DNA of 64,000 bases from Isoetes taiwanensis. Its lineage: Eukaryota; Streptophyta; Lycopodiopsida; Isoetales; Isoetaceae. The position numbers and the translations under genes are program-made. Where the stretch lies: NCBI GenBank assembly GCA_021234155.1, contig JAJEKV010000058.1, positions 7,004,992 through 7,068,991 of the forward strand, in the 5' to 3' direction. Shown one piece after another: positions 33,650 through 54,345 of the stretch (the first letter of the stretch is position 1; each line of letters begins with the position of its first letter). The notes under the pieces are model-generated. The model saw only the letters and a program-made list of their open reading frames with translations. It ran no database searches and had not been told where the DNA came from.

Positions 33650-34095
33650 CACTACAAGGGATAGTCGTCCTTCAACGACGTCGACACGTCGACGAACGAG
33701 GGTCGTCGTCGAAAAACGACGACATCGTCGTTCAACGACGACAACGTCGTTTCGACGTCGTTCAACGACGTTTATCAGGGCTGACGTGTCGGATTTGCCT
33801 GCGTGGCATGGTACTGCTGCAAAGCTGGCAGGCCTGCGTGTTGGAACACGTCAGCTGGACGTCGTTCAACGACGTCTCCGTGAAGGCTGACGCCGCTACC
33901 GGCGTCTGGCGTGGAAATGGGTTGCCAAGCTAGCTGGCGTACCGCGTGTCAAGGCAGCGCCCGCCGCAAAGCCGTCGTTGAACGACGTCGGCGAAAGCGG
34001 CGTTTCATGTTGGCCTCCGTGGCATGGTGCTGGTGCCAAGCTGGCCTGCCTGCGTGCCAGGACACGTCAGCCATGACGTCGTTAAACGACGTCAC
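33650..34095. repeat. Left subterminal palindromic repeats of the CACTA element
   Basis: Copies of GTCGTTNAACGAC in both orientations occur at about 33665-33775, 33857-33877, 33973-33993 and 34077-34097, within a GC-rich region unlike the AT-rich flank. In En/Spm, subterminal repeats are the binding sites of the TNPA protein; that role here is by analogy. Confidence 0.85.
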
Positions 34096-34119
34096 ACAGA
34101 AGTTTTTGCCAAATAAAAA

Positions 34120-34143
34120 CCCTAACCCTAACCCTAACCCTAA
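34120..34143. repeat. Short interstitial telomere-like repeat (CCCTAA)4
   Basis: Four CCCTAA units end in CCCTAAATCC. The unit is the 6-bp vertebrate/Asparagales-type telomere word rather than the common plant 7-bp CCCTAAA. It lies inside the transposon's left end, directly before its first ORF. Confidence 0.75.
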
Positions 34144-34218
34144 ATCCACCTTATAAGTGGATCCATCAGTAGCTGCTGTTATTCTTATCTTTTGAGTGTT
34201 CTTCCCTATCTTGCTATA

Positions 34219-34526
34219 ATGGTCCGGCAGTTGAAGACCACCTTCGCGCGATATGTTCCTTCTAGCAGTAATCCTCCTCCTCCAAGGGAAGACAACTCCA
34301 AAGAACCCCCCGCTTCTCATTTGAGAACCCTCCCTTCACCATCGTGGCAAAGATGAGTGAAAAGGAGCTTCTGATTGCACTAACATCTGGCGTTCCATGC
34401 GGGGAACGACTGGTAGAATGGCTCACCGAGCCAAACAAAGAGAAAACGACATTAATGGTGCAGATAATGATGCAAATGGTTGCATCAAAGCATCACGCCC
34501 TCGGGATGGACATAAGTAATGTATAA
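34219..34526 (+). pseudogene. Small 5' ORF of the CACTA element, unknown function, one frameshift
   Basis: ATG at 34219 opens a basic and then Pro-rich N-terminus (MVRQLKTTFARYVPSSNPPP). The frame is lost near 34318 and continues one base off as FENPPFTIVAKMSEKELLIA to a stop at 34526. The second part looks helical (KELLIALTSGVPCGERLVEW). The joined product would be about 100 residues. I do not recognise it. It sits between two clusters of the palindromic repeat, so it may have its own promoter. Confidence 0.45.
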
Positions 34527-34677
34527 GCTTTTTGTATGAATGGAAACAATAAGTTTTTAACTATTTGTGTTGTCGTTGTATAAGCTTATTTTATGAATGG
34601 GAACAATCGCTTTTTTTTTATTTATTTGTGTTATTTGTATTGTATGTTGTTTCGTTATGTTAAACAATCACGGTTGG

Positions 34678-34850
34678 TCGTTTAACGACGTTATGATCAT
34701 TTGACGCCGTTAAACGGCGTTATGATCATCGGCGTGGCATATGAGGGGCATCGCTGGCGTGGCATGCCGACGCGGGGCATGCCTAGGTGTCGGCGACGCC
34801 GTTAAATGACATCGTTAAACGTCGATAAGACGCCGTTAAACGACGCAATA
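34678..34850. promoter_or_regulatory. Internal palindrome cluster upstream of the transposase gene
   Basis: Copies include GTCGTTTAACGACGTT (34678), GACGCCGTTAAACGGCGTT (34703) and GCCGTTAAACGACGC (about 34830), interleaved with GCGTGGCAT repeats. The leader of the TNP2 gene follows, with a splice donor (CATAAG/GTAAGA) near 34939. By analogy with En/Spm this could be the promoter and TNPA-type binding region. Confidence 0.6.
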
Positions 34851-34938
34851 TGGCGGAACCCGCCGCCGGGTTATTTACCATTTCTTTGTTATTTTCACTC
34901 GTTTGTTTCGGATTTTTTTGCGCTCGTGGGTCTTCATA

Positions 34939-35381
34939 AGGTAAGATCTCTGCTTTAATCTTTGTGGTTTTAGAGTTAAACACCTCCAAATGCTAATAGA
35001 TTAGAAGATTGAATCTTGAAAGTATGTTAAAAACTTGAGGGATGCATGATCAAAGGTAATCGGTCGGCTCCATCCCGAATGGAGAAGACTAGATGTATCG
35101 GGTTTATGCACCTCGTAACAGAAGTTTCAATCTTCATAGATTACAAAAAGATTTGAAAGGTTGCGTGAATATAAGGTAATCGGGTCGACTCCATTTCAAA
35201 TGGAGAGGACTAGATGTATCGGGTTCAGGCACCCTTCAATCAAATGCTTTCTAAATATCATAAACGTTGTATGAATCTGAATCTTAAGAATAAACATTTG
35301 ATAAAATCATGAAAAAAACATGGATATTTATATTTATTATATTATTACATGGTTTTTATTAATATTTTTATTGTTTACTAG
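34939..35381 (+). promoter_or_regulatory. Probable leader intron of the transposase gene with two stem-loop repeats
   Basis: The donor GTAAGA at 34939 and an acceptor (TTGTTTACTAG) at 35381 bound an intron. Within it a unit of about 120 bp occurs twice (core at 35062-35103 and 35183-35226). Each has the core GG(T)CG(G/A)CTCC..GGAGA.GACTAG. The arms around it pair as CTCCAT/ATGGAG in both copies. Related units occur at 53157, 53281 and 53405. Confidence 0.55.
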
Positions 35382-35390
35382 AAAAACAAC

Positions 35391-36719
35391 ATGGACCGAA
35401 CGTCATAAGGAATTTGAACGTAAAAGTGAGACAGTAAAGCTTTGAGAAAGTTACATGGCGACTTGCGCAAGAATGTTACCCCAACAATTGCCACAAATAG
35501 TCCAATTAGACCCGGTGGACCGAAGTCTTCCTAGAGGCTTTGGTGGTGTGCATGAAATGAATGCCCATGTATGTATGTACCATAAACATGTTTGAATGAT
35601 TAGTTAACTTTATATCTTGATGTTACTTTTTTTTTTTGCGGTTGTATTTGACCAGAGCGGTTATATTGCAATTGTTCGATGTGCAAAGGACAAATAAAAC
35701 GGATGAGAAAGACCTCACCGACCATGTTGACAAATATGGTGAATGCCCGACAAATCAAAGGTTTCGGACGCACATGTGGGGTATTCCAACGAGGTATAAT
35801 ACACGAATCTCATGAACTTCGAATCAACTACTCTCATGTACTTGAATCGGCGCCTTAACTTAGTTTGCTTGTATTTTGTTAGGAAGAAATTGAGAATGAA
35901 GTGAGCTCAAGCAAAGATATAGATTTTGGGGTTATGTTGTCATTGGAAGTAGATGATGTTGATACTATGAATGCATTCATAGAAAACCCTACAAAAAGAA
36001 AGCCATCAACTTCCTCAAAGAGTATCCCATTACGTGATAGAACTCGTCGTGCAATGGCCGTTGCCAAGATTGGAGGGAATGACAATGTTCATCAAAATTG
36101 GAATGTACTAGATCATGTAGAAGAAAAATAATCTTCCACCTTCACTAGTCCATTTGGTCCACCCTTTTTACGATAAAGATCGTGAAGAAATTCAATGCAT
36201 GGCCTAGAGGCAAGCCAATTATTTATGGGGAGCAATTTACATATTGGGATAGGCAGTACATGATTAAAAATAGTCGGGTCCCCGGTGCTGGCCTGGGATT
36301 ATATATTATGACGAATACAAAAGTCAAAGATGGTACGACTGTTCCTTTAATGCCATATGTAGGTCCTGAATATAACTCAGACACTTGGCATAAATTGAGT
36401 AAGCATCAGTGGCGCATGCTCATCTATGGCCTAAATTCAAATGCACGAACAATATCCAAGCCCAGTGACTACGCAAGCTTCACATATATTGATGGTCGCC
36501 CTCAGTTGCATGGAAACCTTGCTGCTTTTATTAATAGCTCTATCGAGAATCCTGAAGCTACCAATTGTGAATTTGTCGAGGCAAACAAAGACCAAGAAGA
36601 TTTTTTTAGGCGTAAAATTGACGGGAGATATATCATGGTTTATGCTATAAAAACTTTGTATTGGTGATGAATTGTTCATTGAATATGAATACGGTAGACC
36701 AATACCGGAGGTCCTTTGA
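35391..36719 (+). pseudogene. TNP2-associated N-terminal domain followed by a SET domain
   Basis: The first part (about 35655-35800) encodes YCNCSMCKG and, after a frame change, DLTDHVDKYGECPTNQ, matching the C-x-C-x2-C...HL..YG pattern of the transposase-associated domain at the N-terminus of CACTA TNP2 proteins. An intron ends at about 35882; a linker (35886-36131) follows. From 36149 the frame encodes a SET domain: SRVPGAGLGLY (G-x-G-L), MPYVGPE, YIDGRPQLHGNLAAFINSS (usual R-F-I-N-H-S), TNCEFV, then after a +1 shift near 36650 IGDELFIEYEYGRP (usual G-E-E-L-x-x-D-Y-G), ending at 36719. SET domains are lysine methyltransferases using AdoMet. The usual His of N-H-S is Ser here. Three or more frameshifts make this copy doubtful as a working gene. 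Whether SET is a separate protein or fused to TNP2 is open. Confidence 0.75.
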
Positions 36720-36765
36720 TGATATACTCAAATTACTCATATAATTTTCATCGGAATGCACCCTT

Positions 36766-36866
36766 TTTCTTCTTCTTCTTCTTCTTCTTCTTCTTCTTCT
36801 TCTTCTTCTTCTTCTTCTTCTTCTTCTTCTTCTTCTTCTTCTTCGAATTCTTCGAATTCTTCTTCT
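36766..36866. repeat. (TTC)n microsatellite
   Basis: Nearly uninterrupted TTC repeats, ending with two GAATTC interruptions. It lies between the SET exon and the TNP2 body, and would provide a long pyrimidine tract before the acceptor at 37041. Confidence 0.97.
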
Positions 36867-37041
36867 CTTGGAATGAGATTGCACATATTGAAGATAAATG
36901 TGTATTATATCTTCAATATATGCTTTGATTATGACATAAAATTTTATATTTCGTTCGTTATTAAATGCTTAAAATTTAACAAACACGGGCTCTCAATGCA
37001 TGTATCAATCACGTATATATTTCGTTTAATCTGACGTGCAG

Positions 37042-40000
37042 GGTAGGCAAGTGGATATGAGACCACATCCAAGCGTACTGAATTGGCGACATCAAACGTC
37101 ATTGCGGATAGCAGAATTAGAATACATTGAGCAGTATGGTACAAACATGGGCACAACGCATAATGAAGAGTACAATGATGAAGATGAACAGGAATACGAT
37201 GATGAAGATGACGACAATGCCCCTATGGACGACTTCATGGAAGTTGAGGAACCCATAGCCGACATGTTAGATGCATTTGGCCCAAGATGACGATATAAAT
37301 ACTCCTAACGATGGTCATGAAGATCACGTTTTATTGGAGGAGGCGCATAAAACATTATATCCAGGTGCAAGCATATCTAGATTGACGACATCTTTATTGA
37401 TATTAAACCTTCAAGCCAAATTCAAATGGAGCAATGCCAGTGTTACGGCTTTGTTAGAGTAAGTACAATTGCAATCACTTGACTTATTGAATTTGTAGTT
37501 GAATGTATACGTAAAGGTCTGTTTTATGCAGGTTATTGCAAGAGAAAATACTCCCACAAGGGAACACTATGCCCAAAAGTCGCAATGAAATAAAAAATAT
37601 ATTGGCAGCTACTTGTTTAGGCTACCATAAGATTCACGCTTGTCCAAATGTTTGCATGGTATATTATCCGAATGACATCTACAAGAACACAGAAACATGC
37701 CCTAAATGTGGTGCCTCTAGGTATAGCGCAGATGCCAAGGGAAAGACCGTCCCGATGAAGGTGGTTCGCTACTTTCCATTGATCCCCGCGATAAGGCTAT
37801 TGTTTCGATGTGAATCTCTAGCGGCTCATGGGTTGGTGTGCCGCTAATGCGTCGAGTGACAATGTACTCCACGTAGTTAGTGACTGCAAGCAATGGAAGC
37901 ATATTGATGAAACATGGCCGGAATTTGGAAGAGAGCCACGAAATCTCAGATTAGGGTTGGCAACGGATGGTGTTAATCCTTATGGACGTCAATCGGCCGC
38001 GTGGTCAACTTGGCCAGTAGTGTTGATCAACTATAATTTACCACCGTGGTTACTCATGAAGACTAGCCATTTAATGGTAGTACTATTAGTTCCAGGACCG
38101 AAGAAGCCGGAAAGTCTAGATCCGTATCTGAAAATAGTTATTGATGAGCTTTTGACATTGTGGAGTGAAGGTATTGAAGTTTACGATGTCTCAAGAGAAC
38201 TTCGTGCTGAACGAAGATTTACCTTGAGAGCAATCTTAATGTGGACAACGAGCGATTGGCCTGGTTTGTATGAACTCTCTGGACTCCAAGTGTCTGGATA
38301 TGCGGCATGTCACTTGTGTGGGTTTGAACAGTTGAACTCTCGCCGGTCAACGGCATTGCACAAAAATGTCTATGCAAACTTCAAGAGATATCTGCCAATG
38401 GAAAATCGACTTCGATACGTAGGTCCAAGAGAAAAATATTGCACTGAAGAGCCTCCCAAAAGGTTGACAATGAGAGATTGGGGTAACATGTGGGATGCTG
38501 AAGGAAATAAGGTTAAGGGAATGAAGTGGAAAGCATCCTTCTTCCTTCTACCCTATTGGATTTAATTGAAGATCCATCATCTTCTTGATCCCATGCACAT
38601 CTTTAAAAACGTTTGGCGTCTATTTGGAGGCATGTCACTTGGGACGTAAGGACACAGATCAAAAGACGAGAAGATCTACAAGAAGTCGGATCAAAATCTA
38701 AAGCATGGTTAAATGTCGAAGAAGGAATAAGGCCACAAGTGGATTGGATCGTGCCTAGAAAATGTATGAAACCCGCTCGAGAAGCGATCAAGGCAATAAA
38801 GACTCCAACGGGATATATGCATTCGTTATGTAATTGTTTCTCTAACGAAGGGGAGTTAACTGGGTTGAAATCTCATGATTGGCATAAGATGTTGCAGTTT
38901 GTTATGCCTATTGTTCTGAGGGGTCGTCTCGCCGACGGTCCACTACGTGCAATATGTCTCCTATCAGAGTTTTCCAGGTTCGTACGGATTTAGAAAACAC
39001 TCGATGTTGAACTCTCACTTAACTTTTTTCTTTCTTAAATGATATTTAGATGGATTACAAGGAAGGAGATACCGACAAATGAAATTGCGGACATGCGAAC
39101 TAAGGTCGTTGAGGCATGTTGTATGCTAGAGAAAGAATTCCCAACAAGTTTTCTGGACATACAAACTCACTTACTAGTGCATTTAGTGGACGAAGTAGAG
39201 CTTGCAGGCACAACAAATCCTAGATGGATGTTTTTTATAGAACGCTTTCTGAAGGTCCTCAAGGACTTCGTACGTCAGAAGGCAAGGCCAGAGGGTTGCA
39301 TGGCCGAGGGTTGGTTAGCACGAGAGTCATTATTCTATGTCACCGAGTTCTTGGCCGATCTACACCCCAATGCTCCACGATTATGGACCGATGAAGACAC
39401 TCCAACTATAATTGGAGAAGTTCCAGAAGGAAGACCACGTAAGAAATTGTTCACACTAGAAGAACAGCAAAAGTCAATAAGTTTTCATCTACAACTCCAC
39501 TCCCATGGAGAAATGGATAAAAAAAATACGAGAAGAAAAAATAAAAAGAGATGAGGAGAGAAGACGCTTATCGACAAAAGAATCGCAAACAACCACTTCC
39601 GGATCATCTAGGGTCCCCGCCAAGTGAGATAAACAATAAATGGCTGCTCGAACAACTAGAGATGGCAAGGCAACGTGCTTAACATGTTTCTAGCGAAGAA
39701 TTTGCATATGCTAAAGGCGTGTCACTATTTGTAAGTGCAACTTAATAGCATATAATTCACGAAGTTTCGATTCGTTATTTTGAACATTTGTTCCTTTACT
39801 TTGTAGTATAATTCATATGCATCAATATGGTCTTCGGTGCTCACTTTCGGCGACAAAGTGTGGATCATGGCAAACGCACTTATGATTGTGGTATATCAGC
39901 AAAGTTTAGTACGCTTTGCCGTGATCGGTAAAGTGCACTCCAAACCCAATCGAGGCAATGTTGGAATGGATTGGTACTATAAAGACTATCATGGAGGTTG

Positions 40001-40352
40001 ATGTCGGTAGTGCATTCAAAACAATGTTGTTTGATGCCTAATGGTTTGATCTTGTGTGTGTACTGGTGCTCATGCCACGATACGCAAAGATCTGAGTGGC
40101 CTGTATTCACTAGATTCAACTCGTCGGTATCGTGGTCAAGACACACTCGTGAGGGTTGAGCAATGTGAACAAGTATGTTTACTTGGATGCAATAAAATTT
40201 ATATATGTCATTAACAAAGGAACTAATGTAATAGAGGTTTTGTAGGTCACCTTCGTTCCAGATCCTTTGCAAGATCAGTGGTGGTTCGTAGTTCCATGTA
40301 AGGCTCGCCCCACCAAGATATTTGAAGGTGAAGAAGAGATGGCGGTCGAATA
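37042..40352 (+). pseudogene. TNP2-family CACTA transposase (Tnp2, DUF4218, DUF4216 regions)
   Basis: An acidic segment (37150-37260) precedes LLEEAHKTLYPGASISRLT, LPQGNTMPKSRNEIKNIL, YHKIHACPNVCMVYY and CPKCGASRY. Next come WPEFGREPRNLRLGLATDGV, WSTWPVVLINYNLPPWL, EGIEVYDVSREL, LSGLQVSGYAACHLCG and LDPMHIFKNVW, the core Tnp2 domain. After GLKSHDWHKMLQFVMPIVLRG an intron (38978-39049) is precisely spliced to RWITRKEIPTNE. The DUF4218 region follows (IQTHLLVHLVDEVELAG, FIERFLKVLKDFVRQKARPE). A third intron and a badly broken DUF4216-like C-terminus end with VTFVPDPLQDQWWFVVPC at about 40246-40352. Another intron is 37459-37531. Frameshifts lie near 37288, 37828 and 38610-38650, and in-frame stops at about 38563 and 38650. 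The enzyme would cut at the CACTA ends; this copy looks inactive. Confidence 0.92.
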
Positions 40353-40744
40353 GAGAGGTTGGGGGCTAGACTATTGTCATGATAGAAGACTACCATCGAT
40401 TGAACCTTCATTACTTTATTATGATTATATTTTCTTCCCACATATGAATAAGAAAATACTTTGGCATGCGAATTTGTGTATACTACAAACCATATTAGGC
40501 AACATTAGTATTGCAACTTCGGGTTATCATAGACATTTATGCCAAGTTAATTGGCAGCCTAGTATAGACCTATGGCTTGCAAAGCGATCGAGGGCAGTCC
40601 TACATACAGTTGAGTACACGCTTTATGTTTAATTAATCATAAAATGTGAAGATTCCCTTCAAAATGCAAGATTCATATACAAAAATCATATATGTATTCC
40701 CTTCAAAATACAAAATTCATATAAAAACCCATACACAATTCAAA

Positions 40745-41300
40745 TACACAAAACAAACAAAGTGGATGCGGTGCACACCTAGCGGTATATATCAGCAGAT
40801 CCAAGCAGGATCCACTTTCAAGCAGCTCGGAAGGTGCTCGACGGTGATTTCCTCCACCCCGCCGTAACAAGCCTCGAGAAGCATGGAATCCAAGCCCTCC
40901 GGGCTGTGGTGTACATTTCCCCAAGGAATTCATGTACAAGCACTTCCCCGCGATGCCCCGTTGGTCTGGTGCAACCTTTGAAAGTAGGGCTTTCAAAGCA
41001 AATGTTTCCCTTCCCAAAGGACCCTATCCTCTAGCATACGGGCCAAGCACAACGAGCTCACCATGCATTTCTTCAGGCATTCGAGCCTGTATTGAGGGAA
41101 GGTCCCGGCCTCCCAAGAATGCGAGCGAGGTCTTTCTTGCCCCCTATCACGCAGCTTTGTCATGGCTTGCTTGAACTCTGGCCTTTCTTGGGTTAGGTTC
41201 GCCTCTAGCCACTCGGGATTTGGAGGCGTTCGTGTGCTCAGCGGCCGCTACCGGCCTCAGTGCGGCATCAAGCGGGCATGCATCGGGGAAGCGGCCATGG
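40745..41300 (-). pseudogene. Minus-strand coding-like fragment, possibly captured
   Basis: One minus-strand frame can be followed from an ATG at about 41298 to 40798 with only four in-frame stops. Between the stops it reads naturally (NPEWLEANLTQERPEFKQAM, GTFPQYRLECLKKCM, LDSMLLEACYGGVEEITVEH). It opposes the transposon's own genes. No family recognised. It may be a decayed captured host fragment or an antisense gene of the element. Plus-strand frames here are less protein-like. Confidence 0.35.
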
Positions 41301-41440
41301 CAGATGCAGTGAGGAGCCTTAATTTAAGGAGGAGGAGGAGGAAGCTGGAGAGCGGAGGAGCAGAGGACGGAGGACGGAGGGCGGCGGAGAAGCTGGAGGA
41401 CTAATAGGGCAATATATATGCGAAAACAAAACAAATTTCG

Positions 41441-41514
41441 TACGACGTCGCAAATGCGGTGAACGTCGTTATAGACGTCGTTAAACGACGTTGAAACGTC
41501 GTTAAACGACGTCT
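41441..41514. promoter_or_regulatory. Internal palindrome cluster upstream of the 41.7 kb gene
   Basis: The cluster contains GACGTCGTTAAACGACGTT and, shortly after, ACGTCGTTAAACGACGTC, with two further half-sites. It lies about 210 bp before the ATG at 41724 and matches the terminal repeats of the element. Confidence 0.7.
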
Positions 41515-41723
41515 CTGTTCCTTTAAATGTCAGCCGGCCGGCTTTCATTTTTCCCATTTGTTTTATGATTTGAGTTGATTTGAGTATTGCGCTACTCGCT
41601 TTGAACGATCCTCGGATCCTAGTTTTTCATTGCAGTTATTGTGAGAGTTTTTTCTTTATTGCTTTTGGGATACATGGCCATGGAAGGTATGCTTCGACGC
41701 TTGAACCGGCATTCGGGGAGGAG

Positions 41724-42204
41724 ATGAGGATTCAAGAGCGAGAGAGATATGGAACTGTCTTCACAAGTAAGGCTACACTGTAGTTTATAGACTTTATTGT
41801 ATTTTTCTCTATTTTCTAATCTATAGCTTGGTGTAGGAGCCGTCGAGGGCATGAGAAGGAAGGGAATCCTCCGTGAACCCCCTCCTCCACTCGAAGATGA
41901 GGACTATGAAACAACGATCCATCGGATGAAGGTGTTAAAGAAGTATGTGATTGGTGAGAAGGCACTGACCGAATTGCTAGGAACCAGTGAGCTGCCTAGC
42001 ATGATGAGGGTGCTTCTTGAAAAGATGGTCAGGGTTTGGAAGCACCACAGGAAAAACAACATTAACATGATACTAGCGTCGACATGGCTGCCGCCAGACA
42101 TACTTGACATGGAGCTATGGTTCAAAGGGGATGGACAAGTGGAGGACTTCACGATGGAAACCATAAGCCAAGCTCATGAGGAGTATGCTGAATTATTCAA
42201 GTGA
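41724..42204 (+). CDS. Spliced accessory ORF of the CACTA element, 136 residues, unknown function
   Basis: Exon 1 is 41724-41766 and exon 2 41837-42204. The donor is GTAAGG, the acceptor TGGTGTAG, and the join restores one frame (..TVFT-RAVEGMRRKGIL..). The product has an N-terminal RERERYGTVF, a Pro run (REPPPPLEDED) and a helical remainder (MRVLLEKMVRVWKHHRKN) ending DFTMETISQAHEEYAELFK. No membrane segment or zinc motif is present. The motif RKGILREPPPPLED resembles MRGMLEPPPYLDE in the ORF at 49845-50441, so the two may be paralogues. It is intact, unlike the transposase. The frame is also open upstream to 41580, so an earlier start is possible. Confidence 0.6.
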
Positions 42205-42260
42205 TCTTTGTTCAATAAACCTATGTTTTGTACATTGTTATATTTTCTCTTGGGTACAAT

Positions 42261-42574
42261 CTAGCATTGATTATGCATGAACATGATCTTCTGTTGGATC
42301 CCGCCTTCTTCAGTTTGATTTGCCATTTCGGAGCCTGAGGTTTCTGCGACATTTCGACTTGGACTGGTAGAACCAGCTTCTGAGATTATTTGTGGTTTGG
42401 ACTCTCCTGTAGCTCTTACAAATGGGACACTTCCATGTTCTAAATCTTTCAAATGCACATTCTTAGAAGTTTGTGATGGACAGTCAGCTTGGATTTTTTC
42501 TCCAACCTGACTGATAGAAGCAGCCACTAAATTTATGTTTCTTTGTGGCTTGAAGTCAACTGCATCTTCCAAAT
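42261..42574 (-). pseudogene. Minus-strand coding-like fragment, possibly a captured gene piece
   Basis: An open minus-strand frame of about 105 residues has natural composition (LEDAVDFKPQRNINLVAASI, QTSKNVHLKDLEHGSVPF, SEAGSTSPSRNVAETSGSEM). Its upstream edge merges with the first unit of the tandem array at about 42574, so the true start is lost. Its orientation is opposite to the element's genes. CACTA elements commonly carry host gene fragments; that origin is inferred. No family recognised. Confidence 0.4.
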
Positions 42575-45500
42575 CAGCTCGGTTGCCTCGCAACGGGCTG
42601 CCCCGACGGTTCTAATGCTAACCCTTTGACCTAAACCTTCTCCGAAAATTCCGAAAATTGGGTCGTGTACTGGAGATGAATTAGGGATCCAGCTGGCAAA
42701 AAATCAGAATTTATTTTCGTGCAATGCATTAATTACGAATTTATGAGTGTGTTGCCACTGCAAAAGCGCCCCCTGACTTCTAATTGCCACATCGGGAGGA
42801 GGACAGGTCCAAACTCCGTTCCGTCAGTTCCCTTTGCTATGTGTTCTCGGCCGCAGCTTGTCGGCCACGTTCCAACTGCAACAGACCAGGACTCGGCCCC
42901 CAAAACGTAAACCCTTCTAGAGCCTGGCAACCCACAGGGTTTACGTTTCGGAGGCCCTCTCCTTGTCAGATTCGGCCGGGACCTTGCGACGTGTCTTGAA
43001 GTGGAGTTGGGGTGTTGACGCCAGAGCGCGGACCCTAAAATCCCTCCGGAGGCTGCTTGCCCCAAATTTCCTCTCCCCAAGGCCCTGGGGAAGGACGGGC
43101 AACCTCCCCTCTCCGGAACCACGATTTGGCTCTCCCAATGGACTCAGAACGTTGACATTGCCCTGGGGACCAAGTTCCGTGGCCAGAAGACCAGGACTCG
43201 GCCCCCAAAACGTAAACCCTTCTAGAGCCTGGCAACCCACAGGGTTTACGTTTCGGAGGCCCTCTCCTTGTCAGATTCGGCCGGGACTTTGCGCCATGTC
43301 TTGAAGTGGAGTTGGGGTGTTGACGCCAGAGCGCGGACACTAAAATCCCTCCGGAAGCTGCTTGCCCCGAATTTCCTCTCCCCAAGGCCCTGGGGAAGGA
43401 CGGGCAACCTCCCCTCACCGGAACCGCGATTTGGCTCTGCCAATGGACTCATAACGCCAACATTGCCCTGGGGACCAAGTTCCGTGGCCAGAAGACCAGG
43501 ACTCGGCCCCCAAAACGTAAACCCTTCTAGAGCCTGGCAACCCACAGGGTTTACGTTTCGGAGGCCCTCTCCTTGTCAGCTTCGGCCGGGACCTTGCGCC
43601 ATGTCTTGAAGTGGAGTTGGGGTGTTGACGCCAGAGCGCGGACACTAAAATCCCTCCGGAAGCTGCTTGCCCCAAATTTCCTCTCCCCAAGGCCCTGGGG
43701 ACGGACGGGCGACCTCCCCTCTCCGGAATCGCGATCTGGCTCTGCCAATGGACTCAGAACGTCGACATTGCCCTGGGGACCAAGTTCCGTGGCCAGAAGA
43801 CCACCCGAACTCCAAGAAGCGCCAAAGTAGCTCACTTCCATCACACTCGTAGTCAATTGGCCTAGGATGTGGATGCGGGATACTGTCGTGGAGGGCGTGA
43901 GTGTTTCTTTCTTTTGCAAAACTGACCTTATAACTTGCTCCCTAGGGTAATTTCGCCATTCGGACGATTTGGGGGTCGATTTGCCATTAAGAGCCTCCCG
44001 ATGCCCCGAACGACAAAGCAAAGGCGGTTTCTACAAGGTCGACATCGGGGGCGCCAGCGCGGTTTGACAAGTTCTCGGGACCGATCTGGAATCTTTTGGG
44101 CCTTCCGAAGAGGGCCCATGAACGAGGATCCAACGGCCGGATAGGGGAACCGGCCCGGAGGGTGGTCATTAGCGTGCGACCGGGGGCGCTGCCAGGAAGG
44201 GCTGCCTCGGGAACTTTTTTGGATCCCGCCTCCTGGGGTCCGGACTCTCCCCTCTTGTGAGGGATCCCTGCAAGGTCCTGGCCTCGTTTGACTTGGGGAA
44301 GGGTGCCAGCTCGGTTGCCCTGCAACGGGCTGCCCCGACCGTTCTAATGCTAACCCTTTGACCTAGACCTTCTCCGAAAATTCCGAAAATTGGGCGTGTG
44401 CTGGAGATGAATTAGGGATCCAGCTGGCAAAAAATCGGAATTTATTTTCGTGCAATGCATTAATTGCGAATTTACGAATGTCTTGCCACTGCAAAAGCGC
44501 CCCCCGACTTCTACTTGCCACATCGGGAGGAGGACATGCCCAAACTCCGCTCCGTCAGTTCCCCTTGCTCCGTATTCTCGGCTGCTGCTTCTCGGCCAGG
44601 TCCCAAGTGCAACAGACCAGGACTCGGCCCCCAAAACGGAAACCCTTCTAGAGCCTGGCAACCCACAGGGTTTACGTTTCGGTGGCCCTCTCCTTGTCAG
44701 CTTCGGCCGGGACCTTGCGCCGTGTCTTGAAGTGGAGTTGGAGTGTTGACGCCCGAGCGCGGACACTAAAATCCCTCCAGAAGCTTCTTGCCCCAAATTT
44801 CCTCTCCCCAAGGCCCTGGGGACGGACGGGCGACCTCCCCTCCGGAATCGCGATCGGCTGCCAATGGACTCGAACGTCGACATTGCCCACGGGGACCAAG
44901 TTCCGTGGCCAGAAGACCACCCGAACTCCAACAAGCGCCAAAGTAGCTCACTTCCATCACACTCGTAGTCAATTGGCCTAGGATGTGGATGCGGGATACT
45001 GTCGTGGAGGGCGTGAGTGTTTCTTTCTTTTGCAAAACCGACCTTATAACTTGCTCCCTTCGCCATTCCGGACGATTTGGCAGGGTCGATTTGCCATTCC
45101 GAGCCTCCGCGTGCAACGACAAAAAACAAGGCGGTTTCTACAAGGCCCACATCGGGGGCCAGCGGTTTGACAAGTTCTCGGACCGATCCGGAATCTTTTG
45201 GGCCTTCCCGAAGAGGGGCCCATGAACGGAGGATCCAACGGTCGGATAGGGGAACCGGGCTCCGGGAGGGTGGTCATTAGCGTGCAGCCCCGGGGGGAGC
45301 GCTGCCAGGAAGGGCTGCCTCGGGAACTTTTTGGATCCCCTCACGGGGTCCTGGGACTCTCCCCTCTTGTGAGGGATCCCTGCAAGGTCCTTGGCCTCGT
45401 TTGACTTGGGGAAGGGTGCCAGCTCGGTTGCCCTGCAACGGGCTGCCCCGACCGTTCTAATGCTAACCCTTTGACCTAGACCTTCTCCGAAAATTCTGAA

Positions 45501-48500
45501 AATTGGAGCGTGTGCTGGAGATGAATTAGGGATCCAGCTGGCAAAAAATCGGAATTTATTTTCGTGCAATGCATTAATTGCGAATTTCTTTAATGTCTTG
45601 CCATCGCAAAAGCCCCCGACTTCTACTTGCCACATCGGAGGAGGAGGCGGGGCCCAAACTCCGCTCCGTCCCGGTTTCCCTTGCTCGTATTCTCTTCTTT
45701 GCCGCTTCGCCCAGTCCCAAGTGCAACAGACTAGGACTCGCCCCCAAAACGCAAACCCTTCTAGAGCACGGCAACCCACGGGGTTTACGTTTGGAGGCCC
45801 TCTCCTTGTCGATCGGTAGGGACCTTGCGCCGTGATCTTGAAGTGGAGTTGGGGGCCGAGCGGACCTAAAATCCCTCAGGAAGCCGCTTGCCCCAAATTT
45901 CCTCTCCCCAAGGCCCGGGGCCGGACGGGCGACCTCCCTCTCCGGGACCGCGATCTGGCTCTCGCCAATGGACTCTTGAACGTCCACATTGCCCCAGGGA
46001 TCAAGTTCCAGTGGCCGAAGACCACCCGAACTCCAAGAAGCGCCAAAGTAGCTCACTTCCATCACACTCATAGTCAATTGGCCTAGGATGTGGATGCGGG
46101 GGATACTATGGTGGGCGTGAGTGTTTTTTCTTTTGCAAAACCGACCTTATAACTTGCTCCCTTCGCCATTCCGGACGATTTGGCATGGTCGATTTGCCAT
46201 TCCGGAGCCTCCCCGGTGCCCGAACGACAAAACAGTGCGGTTTCTACAAGGGCGACATCGGGGCCCAGCGGTTTGACAAGTTCTCCGGACCGATCCGGAA
46301 TCTTTTGGGCCTTCGAAGAGGGGCCCATGAGCGGAGGATCCAACCACGGATAGGGGAACCGGGCTCCGGGAGGGTGGTCATTAGCGTGCGGCCCCGGGGG
46401 GAGCGCTGCCAGGAAGGGCTGCCTCGGGAACTTTTTTGGATCCCGCCTCCTGGGGTCCGGACTCTCCCCTCTTGTGAGGGATCCCCGCAAGGTCCTGGCC
46501 TCGTTTGACTTTGGGAAGGGTGCCAGCTTCGGTGTCCCCGCAGCGGGCTGCCCCGACCGTTCTAATGCTAACCCTTTGACCTAGACCTTCTCCCCAAAAT
46601 TTAAAAAATTGGAGCGTGTGCTGGAGATGAATTAGGGATCCGGTGGCAAAAATCGGAATTTATTTTCGTCTGCAATGCATTAATTGCGAATTTACGAATG
46701 TCTTGCCCCGCAAAGCCCCCGGCTTCTACTTGCCACATCGGGGGAGGAGGACATGCCCAAACTCCGCTCCGTCGGTTCCCCTTGCTCGTATTCTCGGTTC
46801 TTTGCTTCTTGGCCAGGTCCCAAGTGCAGCAGACCGGGGACTCGGCCCCCAAAATGCAAACCCTTCTAGAGCACGGCAACCCACGGGGTTTCGTTTGGAG
46901 GCCCTCTCCTTGTCGGTCGGTAGGGACTTTGGCGCGTGTCTTGAAGTGGAGTTGGGGTGTTGGCCTTGAGCCTTGTTCTCGGACCCTAAAATCCCTCGGG
47001 GCCAATGGCTTGCCCCAAATTTCCTCTCCCCAAGGCCACCCTCGGGGCCGGACAGGCGACCTCCCCTCTCGGGAATGCGATGTCTGGCTGGACCTAAAAT
47101 GGACTCGAAACGTCCACATTGCCACAGGGATCAAGACTCAGAACGCCCATTGCCCCGGGCGTCGGGAAGACCACCGAACTCCAAGAAGCGCCAAAGTAGC
47201 TCACTTCCATCACACTCGTAGTCAATTGGCCTAGGATGTGGATGCGGGATCTTGTCGTGGAGCGTGAGTGTTTCTTTCTTTTGCAAAACCGACCTTATAA
47301 CTTGCTCCCTTAAGCCATTCGGACGATTTGGCGGTGGTCGATTTGCCATTCTGGAGCCTCCCCGGTGCGAACGACAAAACAGTCGCGGTTTCTACAAGGC
47401 CGACATCGTGGGGCCCAGCGAGTTTGACAAGTTCTCGGGACCGATCCGGAATCTTTTGGGCCTTCCCTTCAAGAGGGGCCCATGAAGCGGAGGATCCAAC
47501 GGTCGGATAGGGAAGGGCTCCGGAGGGTGGTCATTAGCGTCTGCGGCCCCCGGGGGCGCCGCCAGAAGGGCTGCCTCGGGAACTTTTTGGATCCCTCCGG
47601 GGTCCGGGACTCTCCCCTCTTGTGAGGGATCCCCCGCAAGGTCCCGGCCTCGTTTGACTTGGGGAAGGGTGCCATTTCGGTTGCCCCGCGGGCGGGCTGC
47701 CCCGACCGCTCTAATGCTAACCCTTTGACCTAGACCTTCTCCAAAAATTCCGAAAATTGGGCGTGTCTTTGGAGATGAATTAGGGATCCGGTGGCAAAAA
47801 ATCGGAATTTATTTTCGTGCAATGCATTAATTGCGAATTTACGAATGTCTTGCCACTGCAAAAGCGCCCCTCGACTTCTACTTGCCACATCGGGGAGGAG
47901 GACATGCCCAAACTCCGCTCCGTCGGTTCCCTTGCTTCGTATTTCTGGCTGGCCGCTTCCGGCGGACCAAAGTGCAACAGACCGGGACTCGGCCCCAAAA
48001 CGCATAAACCCTTCTAGAGCACGGCAACCCACGGGGTTTACGTTTGGAGGCCCTCTCCTTGTCGATTCGGTAGGGACTTTCGCCGCGTGTCTTGAAGTGG
48101 AGTTGGGGTGTTGAACGCCCGGCCTTGGACACTAAAATCCCTCCGGAAGCTGCTTGCCCCGAATTTCCTCTCCCCAAGGCCCTGGGGAAGGACGGGCAAC
48201 CTCCCCTCACCGGAACCACGATTTGGCTCTGCCAATGGACTCAGAACGCCAACATTGCCCTGGGGACCAAGTTCCGTGGCGAAGACCGGGACTCCGCCCC
48301 CAAAGCGTAAACCCTTTAGAGCACGGCAACCCACGGGGTTTCGTTTGGGCCCCTCCTTGTCGCCCGGCCCGGGACCTTGCGCCATGTCTTGAAGTGAAGT
48401 TGGGGTGTTGACGCTAGAGAGCGGACACTAAAATCCCTCTCGGAACACCTTTGCCCCAAATTTCCTCTCCCCAAGGCCCCGGGGCCGGACGGGCGACCTC

Positions 48501-49263
48501 CCTCTCAGGAATCGTGATCTGGCTCGCCAATGGACGGAAACGTCGACATTGCCACGGGGACCAAGTTTCCGGGCGAAGACCACCCGAACTCCAAGAAGCG
48601 CCAAAGTAGCTCACTTCCATCACACTCGTAGTCAATTGGCCTAGGATGTGGATGCGGGGGATCTTGTCGTGGAGGGCGTGAGTGTTTCTTTCTTTTGCAA
48701 AACCGAACTTGTAACTTGCTCCCTAGGGTAATTTCGCCATTTAGGACGATTTGGCGTGGTCGATTTGCCATTAGGAGCCTCCCCAGCGCCCCGAACGACA
48801 AAGCGGTGCGGTTTCTACAAGGCCGACATCGGGGGCCCGGGTTTGACAAGTTCTCCCGGACCCGATCTGGAATCTTTTGGGCCTTCAAGAGGGGCCTGAA
48901 CGGAGGATCCAGCGGTCGGATAGGGGAACCGGCAGGAAGGTGGTCATTAGCGTGCGGCCCCGGGGGCGCCGCCAGGAAGGGCTGCCTGGGAACTTTTTGG
49001 ATCCCGCCTCACGGGTCAGGACTCTCCCCTCTTGTGAGGGATCCCCGCAAGGTCCCGGCCTCGTTTGACTTGGGGAAGGGTGCGGCTCGGTGGCCCCCGC
49101 GAAACGGCTTCCCGAACCGTTCTAATGCTAACCCTTTGACCTAGACCTTCTCAGAAAATTCGAAAATTGAGCGTGTCTTTGGAGATGAATTAGGGATCCG
49201 GTGGCAAAAATCGGAATTTATTTTCGCGGCAATGCATTAATTACGAATTTATGAATGTCTTGC
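42575..49263. repeat. Nested tandem (satellite-like) array, 5 full units and a partial
   Basis: The landmark CTGCCCCGACCGTTCTAATG starts units at about 42598, 44330, 45443, 46548, 47698 and 49108. The spacings are about 1732, 1113, 1105, 1150 and 1410 bp. The basic unit is about 1.1 kb. Inside it, a block starting GGACTCGGCCCC is itself tandem at a 304-305-bp period: three copies in unit 1 (42885, 43189, 43494) and two in unit 5 (about 47982 and 48285). These extra copies explain the longer spacings. Units 3-5 carry many one- or two-base deletions. Long frames on both strands are by-products of the GC-rich repeat and do not keep phase between units. Confidence 0.95.
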
Positions 49264-49339
49264 TTCAACATTATTATACTTCAACATTATTGGTATTATA
49301 CTTCAACATTATTGGATTCGTAGCTATAAATTCTTTCAG

Positions 49340-49830
49340 CTTGCTTTCACTTCTCACTTTTCACCTTGCTACTTGATCTCGATCCTTGCTTCTTGCTCCT
49401 TCATCTTCCTTGTTCCTTGATTTTCTTGCTACTTGATCCTCCTTGTTCCTTGATCTTCTTGCTTTTGATCTTCCTTGTTCCTTGATCTTCTTGCTACTTG
49501 ATCTTCCTTGTTCATTGCTTCTTGCTACTTGATCTTGATCCTTGTTCCTTGCTACTTCATTCCAGTGCTCCTTGCTATAATCTTGTTCCTTGCTCTTGAT
49601 CTTGATACTTGATCTTGTTCCTTGCTACTTGATCTTGCTCCTTGATCTTCTTTGCTACTTGATCTTCTTGCTACTTGATCTTCCTTGTTCATTGCTCCTT
49701 GCTACTTGATCTTGATCCTTGTTCCTTGATACTTCATACCTCTGCTCCTTGCTACTTGATCTTGTTCCTTGCTCTTGATCTTGCTACTTGCTCTGCTTGC
49801 TCCGTGTTCCTTGCTCCGTCGGTGATCCTT
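49340..49830. repeat. CTTGCTACTTGATCTTC-type minisatellite
   Basis: About 470 bp of imperfect repeats of CTTGCT(A/C)CTTGATCTT and CTTGTTCCTTGATC. It forms the immediate upstream region of the ORF starting at 49845 and would be its leader or promoter. The palindrome cluster seen before other genes of the element is absent here. Confidence 0.88.
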
Positions 49831-49844
49831 GCTTGCTTTTGCAA

Positions 49845-50441
49845 ATGATTGGACCCAATCCTCCCTGGGCTACTCCAGAAGGCCTGCAAGCATGCCCCAG
49901 AAGTTCTGTGCGGCCTGGAATGTATGAGCTATGGGACCATTTCTTGGAGTGGAGGTTGCGCCACAGTCCCACCAAGGAGCTTACAATGGAGTTGATCAAC
50001 TTCATTCTGGAGCGATTTGATTGTGGTCATGAGCCACTGATGGAAATTAATCCATCTGAATGTTATAGGAGACTCGCAATGAGGGGAATGCTTGAACCCC
50101 CTCCTTATCTGGACGAGATGCTACATCAGTTGAGGCCTCTTCTTCGTGCTGGATATTTAGCACACTCTCTGGATGCATACATATCAGAGTTCATTCATGA
50201 AATTTCTAAGGGACATATGTATGGCCTTATTAGGGTGTACTACAACGTGTACAACGGTTTTGTGGAGTTGGGTCCGCTCTTCTTCCGTGAGTATTATCCT
50301 GTGGAATTACTTTTTCTAATGACTAGGTACCCCATATGGTGGGAAGAATCAGGCTGGGAAGATCGTGAGCTCTTGACTCCTAACCCAGATGCATGGGTTA
50401 CACCTCGCAGGCGAAGGGAAAGGGGAAGGGGAAGGGGTTAG
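49845..50441 (+). CDS. Accessory ORF of the CACTA element, 198 residues, unknown function
   Basis: A single intact exon. The N-terminus is MIGPNPPWATPEGLQACP, followed by a helical region (MYELWDHFLEWRL, TMELINFILERFDCGHEP), ECYRRLAMRGMLEPPPYLDE, a long predicted helical stretch with aromatic residues (LIRVYYNVYNGFVELGPLFF) and a basic tail of Arg-Gly repeats (RRRRERGRGRG). The tail suggests nucleic-acid binding. No family is recognised. The central RGMLEPPPYLDE resembles part of the 41724-42204 product. An in-frame extension to 49788 exists but lies in the simple repeat, so the ATG at 49845 is preferred. Confidence 0.6.
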   Translation: MIGPNPPWATPEGLQACPRSSVRPGMYELWDHFLEWRLRHSPTKELTMELINFILERFDCGHEPLMEINPSECYRRLAMRGMLEPPPYLDEMLHQLRPLLRAGYLAHSLDAYISEFIHEISKGHMYGLIRVYYNVYNGFVELGPLFFREYYPVELLFLMTRYPIWWEESGWEDRELLTPNPDAWVTPRRRRERGRGRG

Positions 50442-50580
50442 GAACCTGGGGGAAGGTTACTAGGGACATACATAGTTCATACTTTGGTCTCTATTGTGTT
50501 TGGAAGTTGGTATATGATACCGTGGTATTATGTTCTCTAAATATTCATGTATGTATGATACACGGGTACTGCTCGTGTAT

Positions 50581-50721
50581 ACAACCCCTGCATAAGGTCT
50601 ATGATACAGGGTACTGTACACGTGTATACAACCCCTGCATAAGGTCTATGATACAGGGTACTATAAACGTGTATACAACCCCTGCATAAGGTCTATATAA
50701 CCCCCATAATAAAAAATTCCA
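50581..50721. repeat. 47-bp tandem repeat, three copies
   Basis: ACAACCCCTGCATAAGGTCT begins at 50581, 50628 and 50675 with a 47-bp period. It lies about 140 bp after the stop of the 49845-50441 ORF, probably in its 3' UTR. Confidence 0.9.
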
Positions 50722-51361
50722 GTTTACTAAAAATTTTCGCATTATAATGAAATTGTGCTTGTATGGACTCATTATGGAGTGTACGAAATTGAATATCTCG
50801 AACTTGAAATTCAAGGCTTCAAACATCAAATCATAACACAGTTACATTCCACAGTGCAGAAACAAAGAATATAAGTAGTAGTCTGGCGCATAATTGCTTC
50901 TAGAACTTTCATCAATCAAAAGCACAGTGCATCGAACAATTCAAACCTTGAAATTGGCGAGGCACAGTCACGCTCAGTCGAAGCCAGCTTGATAAAACAA
51001 CGACATATGCTTGGAACATCATCAAAACACGAAACATTATTACCAAGGGATTCCCGAAATTGCACGATTCCCGAAATTGTGGCTCCTTTTAATAACATCA
51101 TCAAAAGACGAAACATCATCAAAAGACAAAACGTCATCAAAAGACGAAACATTATTACCAAGTCATGACTGAAGTGGCTGGCAAGCTTGATTTAGTATGA
51201 AAGTATGCAAGTGAAGCTCAATGGTGCACAAGTCTGGTTTATTAAAGTGGATAGATAAACAAGGATGGAGAGAAATCTAAGTGGATAGATAAACAAGGAT
51301 AGATAAAATACATAAGTAATGAAACAAATCTAAGTTGCTAATAATGTTAACTTAAAAAAAA

Positions 51362-52295
51362 GGACACGTCGTTTGGAACCGAAACATCGTTATAAACGTC
51401 GTTCAACGAAAATTACAGACGTCGTATAAAAAAAAGATTGCTAATAATAATAACTTAATTAAAAAAAAAAAGACACGTCGTTATAAACCAAAACGTCGTC
51501 AAATGAAAGCATAGGGCGGGCTCTAGAATAGGTATAACTTAACTGTCCAAATCCGGTACTGACAACAAATTAATTGCCGTGGCGGTCACATTCGTATGGA
51601 CTCATTATGGAGTGTAATGTAAATTGAATATCTCGAACTCGAAATTCAAGGTGAGTAGGATATGTTATATTAAGGTGATTTATTTCTTTGAAGGGTCTAT
51701 CTTGTGCCACCACAATATAGATAAAAAACATAAGTAATAAAAAAAATAGATCTAAGTTGGTAACTTAATTAAAAAAAAAAAACACGTCGGTATACAGATT
51801 GGCGTCGTTATAGAGATCGTTTAACGACTGTTACAGACGTCGTATAAAAAAAAGATTGCTAATAATAATAACTTAATTAAAAAAAAGGACACGTCGTTAT
51901 AAACTAAAACGTCGTCAAATGAAAGCATAGGGCGGGCTCTAGAATAGGTATAACTTAACTGTCCAAATCCGGTACTGACAACAAATTAATTGCCGTGGCG
52001 GTCACATTCGTATGGACTCATTATGGAGGTCTGTAAAATTGAATATCTCGAACTCGAAATTCAAGGTGAGTAGGATATGTTATATTAAAGTGATTTATTT
52101 CTTTGAAGGATCTATCTTGTGCCACCACAATATAGATAAAAAACATAAGTAATAAAACAAATAGATCTAAGTTGGTAACTTAATAAAAAAAAAGAAGGAC
52201 ACGTCGGTATACAGATTGGCGTCATTATAGACGTCGTTTAACGACTATTACAGACGTCGTTTAACGACGTCACGACGTCGTTTAACGACGTCTGT
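51362..52295. repeat. 419-bp duplication with palindrome clusters
   Basis: A segment with AAAAAAAAGATTGCTAATAAT, GGGCGGGCTCTAGAATAGG and GGTGAGTAGGATATG occurs at about 51421-51839 and again at 51840-52258. Each copy begins and ends with CACGTCG/ACGTCGT half-sites. At 52229-52293 three near-perfect GACGTCGTTTAACGAC sites lie side by side, the strongest internal cluster. It precedes the presumed leader of the 3' genes. Confidence 0.85.
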
Positions 52296-53130
52296 AACTT
52301 TTTATCAGAAACAGAGCCGGCTTTTTCGCCGCCTATTTTTTTTTGTTCTAAGCGGCTGGAGGAGCGTTTTTCGTGGCGATTTTTGGCGCGGATCATCCTT
52401 GCGGTCCTTTCCAAGCTTCAAGCAAGCATCCAAAGGTATTTCAATGGATCAATCAACTCTATTTTTGAATTAGGCTTGTTGTTTGATAGATTTAGGGCTT
52501 CTTGTTTTTTCTTGTTTGTTTTCAATCCATCCCATTTCTATCCTCCTCTTCTTTCCATCCTTGTTTTTCTTCAATCCATTTCGCCAAATAAATTGGTATG
52601 AATCGAATCCTCCTCCTTCTTCTTCCAATCTTCTTCCAATCATTGGTTTTTTCCTTCTAATCTTCCGTTCTTCCAATCTTCTATTCATTTTCTTCTTCTT
52701 CTTCTTCATCACTTTCTCATTCTATTCAATCTTTCTTTCCTATCTCCCCTTTCTTCTTCTTCTTCTATTTCTTCTTCTTCTATTTCTTCTTCTTCTTCCT
52801 CTTCTATTTTTTTTCCATGGAAGAAGAGGGGATGTCGTTGAAAGACGAGGCCCATTCTTCCTCTATTTTTTATTACAAGAAGGGGACGTCGTTGAAAGAC
52901 GAGGCCCCTTCTTTTTATGTTCTTCCTTTTTTTTATTTTTTTGTTTTTATATGTCAATATATAGTTCTTTTTAATGAACAACGTAAATAGTTTTAATGTC
53001 AATGATCTTTTTAACGTGAATGGTCTTTTTGTTTTTGTTTTTTTATTTCTTTATTTATGTAAGTTTTCTAATTATTGAATGCCTTTATTTTTTTGCATGT
53101 ACACTAATAACAAAATGCGTCTAAAAAAAA
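52296..53130. other. Leader region with pyrimidine-rich tract
   Basis: After the palindromes, a donor-like AAAG/GTATTT occurs near 52436. A 300-bp TTC/CCTCTT-rich stretch (52540-52830) follows, then a repeated pair of GATGTCGTTGAAAGACGAG (about 52833) and GACGTCGTTGAAAGACGAG (about 52887), half-palindromes of the element's motif. It probably belongs to the leader or intron of the gene at 53775. Confidence 0.5.
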
Positions 53131-53480
53131 ACTTGGGGAGACTTGGACAAGGGCATGGTCGGCTCCGCCTTGAGTGGAGAAGACTAGGTGTTCCGGGTCC
53201 AAGCTCACCGTTTACTCTTGTAATTTTATTGATTAATGTATTTAGATTAGAAAAAATTGGGGAGACTTGGACAAGGGCATGGTCGGCTCCGCCTTGAGTG
53301 GAGAAGACTAGGTGTTTCGGGTCCAAGCCCACCGTTTACTCTTGTAATTTTATTGATTAATGTATTTAGTTTAGAAAAAATTGGGGAGACTTAGACAAGG
53401 GCATGGTCGGCTCCGCCTTGAGTGGAGAAGACTAGGTGTTCCGGGTCCAAGCTCACCGCCTACTCTTGTTTATTTTTTTA
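53131..53480. repeat. 124-bp tandem repeat, three copies, with stem-loop core
   Basis: The core GGTCGGCTCC starts at 53157, 53281 and 53405. Each copy reads CTCCGC-CTTGA-GTGGAG, a 6-bp stem with a 5-base loop, followed by AAGACTAGGTGTT(C/T)CGGGTCC. The same core with a compensated stem occurs in the presumed leader intron of the transposase gene (35062, 35183). It lies between the donor-like site near 52436 and the acceptor at 53772. Confidence 0.85.
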
Positions 53481-53774
53481 TTAATATATCAATAAATAGA
53501 AATCTTTACGGGATTGGACAAGGGCAGGGTTTTTGAAAAAAATTGCATTATTGATTTTCGAGTTTCTAGTTAAGAATGTTGTTTTTTAAAAATGTTAGGG
53601 ATGTCAAAGAAACACTAATGTGGAGTGGTTAAGAGCAAGAAAAAATTTCAATAGTTGGTTTTTAAAAAAAAATTAAAAGGGAAACTAACTCTTAAGAAAG
53701 TAGGTAAAGATTCATAATGAAGGTTTGAAAAAAGTCACAAAGCAAGATTAATGAATCTAAATTGGTTTGTAGGT

Positions 53775-54345
53775 ATGGCCCCGAGTGTGAAGACACAAAT
53801 GATTAGTGAGATTAGACGCGTGGTCATAAATGAGATATGTGCTAACGAAAAGTCCCCCGGGAGATGCAAACCGGGTCAACGTGTCGACACCATTTTGTCG
53901 ACATGTGAAAAGGAAGTGCCAATTTGAGTTAGCACAAAAATGGCCAGGTCAAGAAGAAATGTTGACTTCTCTCCTTGACACACATGTAAAGCCAATGATT
54001 GGAAACCCCATGGATTTGAAGCATTCAGTGCAGCTTAAAAGTCCCAATGCCGAGGCTCGTGTCAAGGAATGGGTAGCTTCATGGAATTGCTCAAAGAAGC
54101 GACGTGCAGATCACAAGAACATCATTGCGGATCTCAATGCACGTCAGTTGGAGGTAATTAAAAATGCTTTGCATCAGGGGGGAAGCTCTAGTGGAGCAGG
54201 GCCTAGCAAGGCCCACTTTTCTTTGGAGAATCACATGAACACATCAATCTTTGTTGATCCTATACCCGTAGAGGCCGTGGATGTGATACGCCTTATTGAG
54301 GAGAAGCCTTACAAAGTGTTGGAATATCTTCTACCATGGTTGTGA
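53775..54345 (+). pseudogene. CACTA-encoded ORF of about 190 residues with one frameshift
   Basis: ATG at 53775 directly follows an acceptor-like TTTGTAGGT. The first frame (MAPSVKTQMISEIRRVVINE) runs to about 53925. It continues one base off as CQFELAQKWPGQEEMLTSLL and ends at 54345. The product is basic and helical in the middle (ARVKEWVASWNCSKKRRADH, IADLNARQLEVIKNALHQGG) and ends VIRLIEEKPYKVLEYLLPWL. No family recognised. Its place near the right end, under a strong palindrome cluster, makes a TNPA-like or regulatory role possible but unproven. Confidence 0.5.

Follow-up and report, generated by a model that had tools for sequence, protein, structure and literature searches.

A SET (lysine methyltransferase-like) domain is, at the level of the DNA, present as a complete exon, terminated by a stop codon of its own, within the transposase gene of a CACTA transposon family of Isoetes taiwanensis, where it is predicted to lie between a transposase-associated (TA) exon and the TNP2 exon. 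When subfamilies and lineages are compared, purifying selection appears to act on this SET exon and to have preserved it across old branches. The reading favored here, to which a probability of roughly one half is assigned, is that of a cassette exon kept by selection, with splicing generating two proteins, one of which (TA-SET) would be a putative lysine methyltransferase acting for the element. Transposons have mostly been studied as targets of histone methylation; the plant element described in the current work seems to bring its own histone-methyltransferase-like enzyme, kept under selection.

The element of the window and its SET copy

The stretch of DNA analyzed (“the window”, 64,000 nucleotides in length) contains a CACTA element of 23,688 bases (23.7 kb) with a TTT target site duplication (TSD) on both sides (Table 1). 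The 9-mer CACTACAAG is found at 33650 (+ strand) and at 57329-57337 (- strand), and is abutted by TTT in each case. Three matches to this 9-mer are present in the window (the remaining one at 31727) versus 0.42 expected, a number which is reached in 2 of 100 shuffles; the 9-mer alone is weak evidence of element ends. TNP2 and DUF4218 are located downstream of SET and on the same strand. The location of a SET domain within a CACTA element and beside TNP2, as claimed in a preliminary description of this DNA, is thus borne out by the CACTACAAG ends with TTT and by the match to PF02992.

Table 1 Features of the CACTA element (positions are those of the window).
Feature	Position	Strand	Remarks
CACTA element	33650..57337	+	CACTACAAG...CTTGTAGTG; TTT at 33647-33649 and 57338-57340; the same ends pair with TSDs elsewhere
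5' subterminal region, palindromic ACGACGTC-type repeats	33650..34100 (approximate)		repeat families D12, D20
Exon 1, decayed remains	35388..35568 (approximate)	+	compared with L010 and L016
Exon 2 = TA exon (PF13963-like), decayed	35642..35793	+	donor GT 35794; TA identity from relatives
SET exon with own stop	35883..36719	+	acceptor AG 35881-35882; at least 2 frame breaks; unbroken relatives exist
(TTC)n microsatellite	36767..36845		between SET stop and TNP2 acceptor
First TNP2 exon	37042..37457 (right limit approximate)	+	acceptor AG 37040-37041; homologues in L013, L014, L016
TNP2 transposase core (PF02992)	37822..38565	+	Pfam E 2.7e-60
DUF4218 region of transposase	39039..39554	+	Pfam E 6.5e-28
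3' subterminal region	56780..57337 (approximate)		repeat type as at the 5' subterminal region

The preliminary description had also listed peptides in the order of a SET domain, and these were retrieved: SRVPGAGLGLY, MPYVGPE, DGRPQLHGNLAAFINSS and TNCEFV are contained in the frame 36149-36667 (172 codons, stop at 36665-36667), followed by IGDELFIEYEYGRPIPEVL, which reads in a different frame (stop at 36717-36719), the frameshift noted near the end of the domain being real. The first and last parts of the SET exon (from 35883) share one frame, whereas 36149-36667 reads in another; this copy therefore contains at least two frame breaks and represents a decayed copy within a large family. The frame 36149-36667 alone reaches 18.2 bits (E 0.0035) against Pfam SET (PF00856), below the cut-off of 22.4, and a pLDDT of 34 in a single-sequence AlphaFold2 prediction. 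A profile search against SET families had been proposed as a check of the domain, and this check is passed by all three unbroken relatives tested (29.5, 24.4 and 32.6 bits); therefore, the Pfam SET match of the family is not due to chance.

Other parts of the element show features of their own. The (TTC)n stretch located after the SET stop and ahead of the TNP2 acceptor varies in length among sibling copies, and the segment 42575-49260 consists of approximately six imperfect tandem copies of a unit of ~1.1 kb (repeat families D4-D8). In lineage A (defined below), open frames are present 3’ of the transposase (L016:7410-7784 and 8279-9046, with a related frame at 41827-42204 of the window); the two L016 frames match no Pfam family above its cut-off.

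Exon anatomy of the transposase gene

The SET exons examined include those of lineage A (window, L003, L006, L015, L047 and also L016), lineage B (L013, L017, L057) and lineage C (L014, L022, L035), the residue identity of SET being 61% between B and C, and ~47% between A and either B or C. The gene predicted from the DNA of L013 comprises exon 1 (38 codons, starting with ATG), exon 2 (45 codons), the SET exon (274 codons, ending with a stop) and the TNP2 exon, all borders being in phase 0; its exon 2 contains a C-x-C-x2-C...H arrangement and is Transpos_assoc-like (TA). The same exon plan, again in phase 0, is predicted for L014, in which the exon 1-2 border was chosen by hand, and for L016, in which exon 1 is, however, interrupted.

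Splice sites were scanned in 30 loci, and a call was obtained in 26. The donor after the TA exon is GT in 24 of these 26, the SET acceptor is AG in all 23 scored, and the TNP2 acceptor is AG in only 17 of 25 scored; the misses at L056 and L066 arose because the fuzzy match was out of register, the AG being visible by eye. TNP2 is recognized with high significance in L013 (PF02992, E 9.6e-76). Scores against the TA profile are below its cut-off of 27.7 in L014 (26.8 bits), L056 (22.1 bits) and L016 (15.3 bits), as are those against the DUF4216 profile (14.4-24.1 bits versus a cut-off of 30.6), and for both profiles the positions and alignments fit. The suggestion that SET is a module carried by CACTA elements is upheld as regards carriage and recurrence; rather than being an added gene, however, SET forms, at the level of the DNA, one of the exons of the transposase gene.

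SET-bearing transposons are already known elsewhere, and the SET exon anatomy inside a CACTA transposase gene is a new result. SETMAR resembles the present family in combining SET with a transposase, and differs in being an immobile fusion gene of a primate host with a mariner-derived transposase. In the literature searched, no report of SET in CACTA was found among the matches listed; this search was thin on subscription journals and Repbase Reports, so that absence is not proven. As outlined in the part of PMC8978399 available, plant CACTA (EnSpm) elements of the four-domain architecture have in common with the Isoetes family their ends, 3-bp TSD, TNP2, DUF4218 and subterminal repeats, and probably also the TA exon and a DUF4216-like region, the Isoetes family having in addition the SET exon between TA and TNP2. 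The extra domains named there for plant CACTA are Transposase_24, Peptidase_C48, Orbi_VP1, SANT and ribosomal_S8e; SET is not among them, variants being only partly surveyed in that source (PMC8978399). Likewise, SET is not mentioned in the available portion of an account of CACTA exon structure (PMC4158355). The HarbingerS and MuDR families of Phytophthora carry SET (Kojima and Jurka 2014, as cited in the part of PMC12730594 available), and are similar in being DNA transposons with a SET methyltransferase gene, yet they belong to other transposase superfamilies and to an oomycete host (PMC12730594). The transposase of the Isoetes family is TNP2, and no Harbinger family is present among its Pfam matches. 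Fungal transposons with TET/JBP, including EnSpm elements, parallel the Isoetes family as CACTA-type elements combining an epigenetic enzyme with a transposase, the enzyme in this case being a DNA-acting dioxygenase rather than SET, and the hosts being fungi (excerpts of PMC12730594).

Recurrence, mobility and selection of the SET exon

A genome search (1.66 Gb, G000) performed with the window SET returned 1682 candidates, 150 of which were scored, and the best 150 of 156 matches were listed. Their identity to the window, self aside, ranges from 98% down to 49%, transposon copies come up first, and many uninterrupted SET exons of 270-279 codons were encountered upon reading loci L002-L052. For at least 54 of the 150 SET matches listed, TNP2 follows 1.4-2.3 kb downstream in the same orientation, whereas uniform placement would give ~0.01 such cases; the 50% lineages, for which 32 SET matches are listed, contribute nine of the linked pairs. 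The linkage of SET to TNP2 is maintained in A, B and C. For the 54 pairs among the matches listed, the identities of SET and TNP2 to the window are correlated (Spearman 0.54). Recurrence and linkage rule out a later, separate insertion of SET into a single copy. A search of viral contigs gave 64 pattern matches and no relatives of the SET family among them.

The TNP2 matches listed without a listed SET amount to 96, and for 14 of these the upstream 2.8 kb were read: SET or its remains are present in ten, L056 and L066 have a TA exon without SET, and L059 and L061 have neither. That SET is always upstream of this TNP2 clade is ruled out by the SET-less sublineage, B0, described below. The preliminary description had named two outcomes that would contradict it, namely no significant SET match, or a separate insertion missing from sibling CACTA copies; neither applies to the family overall, with the qualification that the sibling sublineage B0 lacks SET.

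With up to 3 mismatches allowed, the 5’ terminus of the element in the window is matched at 274 places in the genome and its 3’ terminus at 194, the backward control giving 0. From the 100 of 274 (5’) and 100 of 194 (3’) matches listed, ten convergent pairs, all of lineage A, were picked by eye, and all ten are flanked by perfect 3-bp TSDs (GCC, AAT, TCT, GAT, ATG, GCA, TTT, GAT, TTG and ACC). Six of these pairs enclose SET, including the elements in C941 (10.0 kb) and C1044 (8.8 kb), and the remaining four enclose none of the SET matches listed. SET therefore resides in elements that moved. Among the 44 of 100 listed 5’ ends having at most 1 mismatch, 16 have a listed SET match 2.5-5 kb inside, the SET list for this test being a shortened one with most 50%-identity lineages left out.

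CACTA terminal inverted repeats are present at both ends in lineage A. For L013 and L014, the 5’ termini were identified by reading conserved sequence: lineage B has a CACTA terminus at the 5’ end, CACTACTAG (5’ side only), and in L013 the terminus CACTACTAGAGAATGGGC stands 0.83 kb ahead of the SET exon. A regular-expression search across 10-kb locus pieces recognized no element ends, and the 3’ ends of B and C were not located. The 5’ end of L014 (lineage C, about 942-959), placed by alignment with L013, reads CACAACAAG, which is not CACTA.

Selection was assessed by the Nei-Gojobori method on 17 pairs chosen by hand from 23 full-length open SET frames; the prior choice of open frames excludes stops, which does not in itself lower dN/dS. 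For SET, three pairs of A subfamilies (dS 0.2-0.4) have ratios of 0.23-0.30, and the comparison of B with C (dS 1.4) gives 0.20-0.22; between A and either B or C dS is saturated with dN at 0.46-0.50. Seven pairs were subjected to 1000 codon bootstraps; for the five whose dS could be measured, no bootstrap attained a ratio of 1, the other two having saturated dS and being uninformative on this point. When TNP2 and SET are compared in the same pair, dN/dS is 0.245 for both in L016-L015, and 0.09 (TNP2) versus 0.20 (SET) in L013-L014; constraint on SET thus equals that on TNP2 in the former pair and is weaker in the latter. Very recent SET pairs (dS < 0.08) give ratios of 0.25-1.33, so many single copies decay, as expected for copies that are dead after insertion. 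Of the support named in the preliminary description, recurrence of SET with TNP2 in many copies and purifying selection on SET were in this manner found, both within the source genome.

These data bear on the proposal that SET is a hitch-hiking fragment of a host gene acquired by chance capture (transduplication). Capture of gene fragments by CACTA elements is known (PMC8978399, in the part available), the window copy is broken and B0 spread without SET; however, the open frames, the dN/dS of 0.20-0.30 between subfamilies and lineages, the conserved splice phase and the retention of SET in three lineages all speak against such an origin, which is already disfavored and considered very improbable.

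SET-less relatives, splicing and catalysis

Comparison of L056 with L013 reveals flanks that align on both sides of a segment missing from L056 (L013 2018-3011, corresponding to the SET exon and one intron). The TA-TNP2 intron of L056 is 70 bases long with phase-0, in-frame borders, and its exon 1 is related to that of L013; the same SET gap is present in L066, which is 95.5% identical to L056 over the region and has damage of its own in the TNP2 exon. The SET-less B0 junction was found in at least 16 places (at least 200 of 221 bases aligned; 53 candidates, 40 scored). Nine B0 junctions match the L056 query at 98-100% identity (C942, C1056, C1031, C753, C1045, C1040, C397, C1051 and C1002), which points to recent activity of this sublineage. 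Since B0 amplified without SET, SET is not required in cis, and so it may be either dispensable or acting in trans. In another CACTA family of this genome, family O (L067-L074, eight loci chosen by hand), SET is absent from the ~3 kb upstream of TNP2 in 8/8 loci; a CPCxKCNG TA-like exon adjoins TNP2 in six of the eight, with L068 passing the TA cut-off (30.2 versus 27.7).

We infer alternative splicing from the borders being in phase 0, from the stop that closes the SET exon, from the conserved TNP2 residues that precede the first Met of this exon in L013, and from the existence of a natural SET-less sibling. One precursor RNA would, with the SET exon included, yield exon 1-TA-SET-stop (357 codons in L013) and, with the SET exon skipped, exon 1-TA-TNP2, i.e. 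the transposase. The production of two proteins, TA-SET or TA-TNP2, from one precursor RNA is, on the basis of exon structure, the most likely arrangement. In maize Spm/En, too, the transcripts of a single element are alternatively spliced to give two proteins, tnpA and tnpD, the differences being that the second product is tnpA and not a SET protein, and that splicing in the Isoetes family is a prediction (sections of PMC2613891 and PMC8195511).

It is unlikely that, instead of being splicing alternatives, SET and TNP2 form separate genes or a single fused polyprotein. Separate genes would be compatible with the stop which the SET exon possesses, and the Met at codon 6 of the L016 TNP2 exon makes a separate TNP2 start possible in lineage A. 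However, the distance from SET stop to TNP2 acceptor is only ~145 bases in L013 and L014, and TA adjoins TNP2 without SET in L056, L066 and family O. Furthermore, the TNP2 exon of L013 and L056 has an in-frame stop ahead and its first Met at codon 21, behind residues that are common to both loci and partly to lineages A and C; an upstream exon is therefore needed for TNP2, at least in lineage B. As regards a fused polyprotein, inspection by eye revealed no in-phase donor common to the loci where the SET exon ends, and a SET-TNP2 fusion was rejected on this visual basis.

For the cassette reading, TA-SET would represent a protein lysine methyltransferase with the N-terminus of the transposase, by means of which the same DNA or partners could be reached, and it would alter chromatin or the transposase to the benefit of the element. 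That TA-SET acts as a protein lysine methyltransferase at the element is the most likely function, put forward from its motifs with less confidence than the splicing. The N-H-S motif of PF00856 is N-S-S in 51 of 52 readable motifs and I-S-S in one (64 loci scanned, 12 without a readable motif), the Asn being kept and the His replaced by Ser. The preliminary description had considered activity of the window copy uncertain in view of N-S-S and of the frameshift; as N-S-S occurs family-wide and is fixed across lineages, its interpretation as a sign of decay is ruled out. PRDM enzymes are active in spite of lacking the N-H-S His, and not every SET family has this residue, a parallel which counts against a non-catalytic reading. 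The GxG, Asn (N) and C-terminal catalytic Tyr (Y) positions are invariant in 12/12 rows chosen by hand, which speaks for a methyltransferase. Counting against it are the Ser in place of His and the profile searches against PDB, which gave nothing significant (KMT2A/2B at E 0.86-2.3, and no SET protein among the matches listed in a second search). No pre-SET/post-SET cysteine cluster is present in the three exons examined (2, 6 and 8 Cys), and NCBIfam returned weak matches only.

In a doubtful alternative, TA-SET would be a non-catalytic isoform that lost methyl transfer through the His to Ser change, and would function as a binding module or as a transposition repressor competing with TA-TNP2. 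N-S-S in 51/52 readable motifs, the low Pfam SET scores (24-33 bits) and the fact that SET-bearing L013 and SET-less L056 have exon 1 and TA in common agree with it, whereas the invariance of GxG, Asn and Tyr in the 12 chosen rows would be unneeded by a mere scaffold. A fuller version of the cassette reading, proposed only tentatively, is that of a working chromatin-writing cassette: when included, the exon would provide an anti-silencing TA-SET methyltransferase guided by the TA module common to both proteins, and when it is skipped the transposase would be made, with B0 using the enzyme in trans. Because both sibling types coexist in one genome, help from SET in escaping or exploiting silencing is directly testable by comparing B with B0.

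In a TNP2 tree (25 rows, midpoint-drawn), a 100/100 branch separates A, B, C and B0 from family O. As judged from this tree and the shared position, SET was probably gained once, before the A/B/C split, in the TA-TNP2 intron, and the simplest history would involve a single gain of SET and one or more losses. B0 falls beside B with moderate support (88/89, branch not starred); the case for loss of SET in B0 is built on this placement together with the agreement of L056 with L013 on both sides of the gap. In the same tree, L061 falls with B0, and L059 is placed in C.
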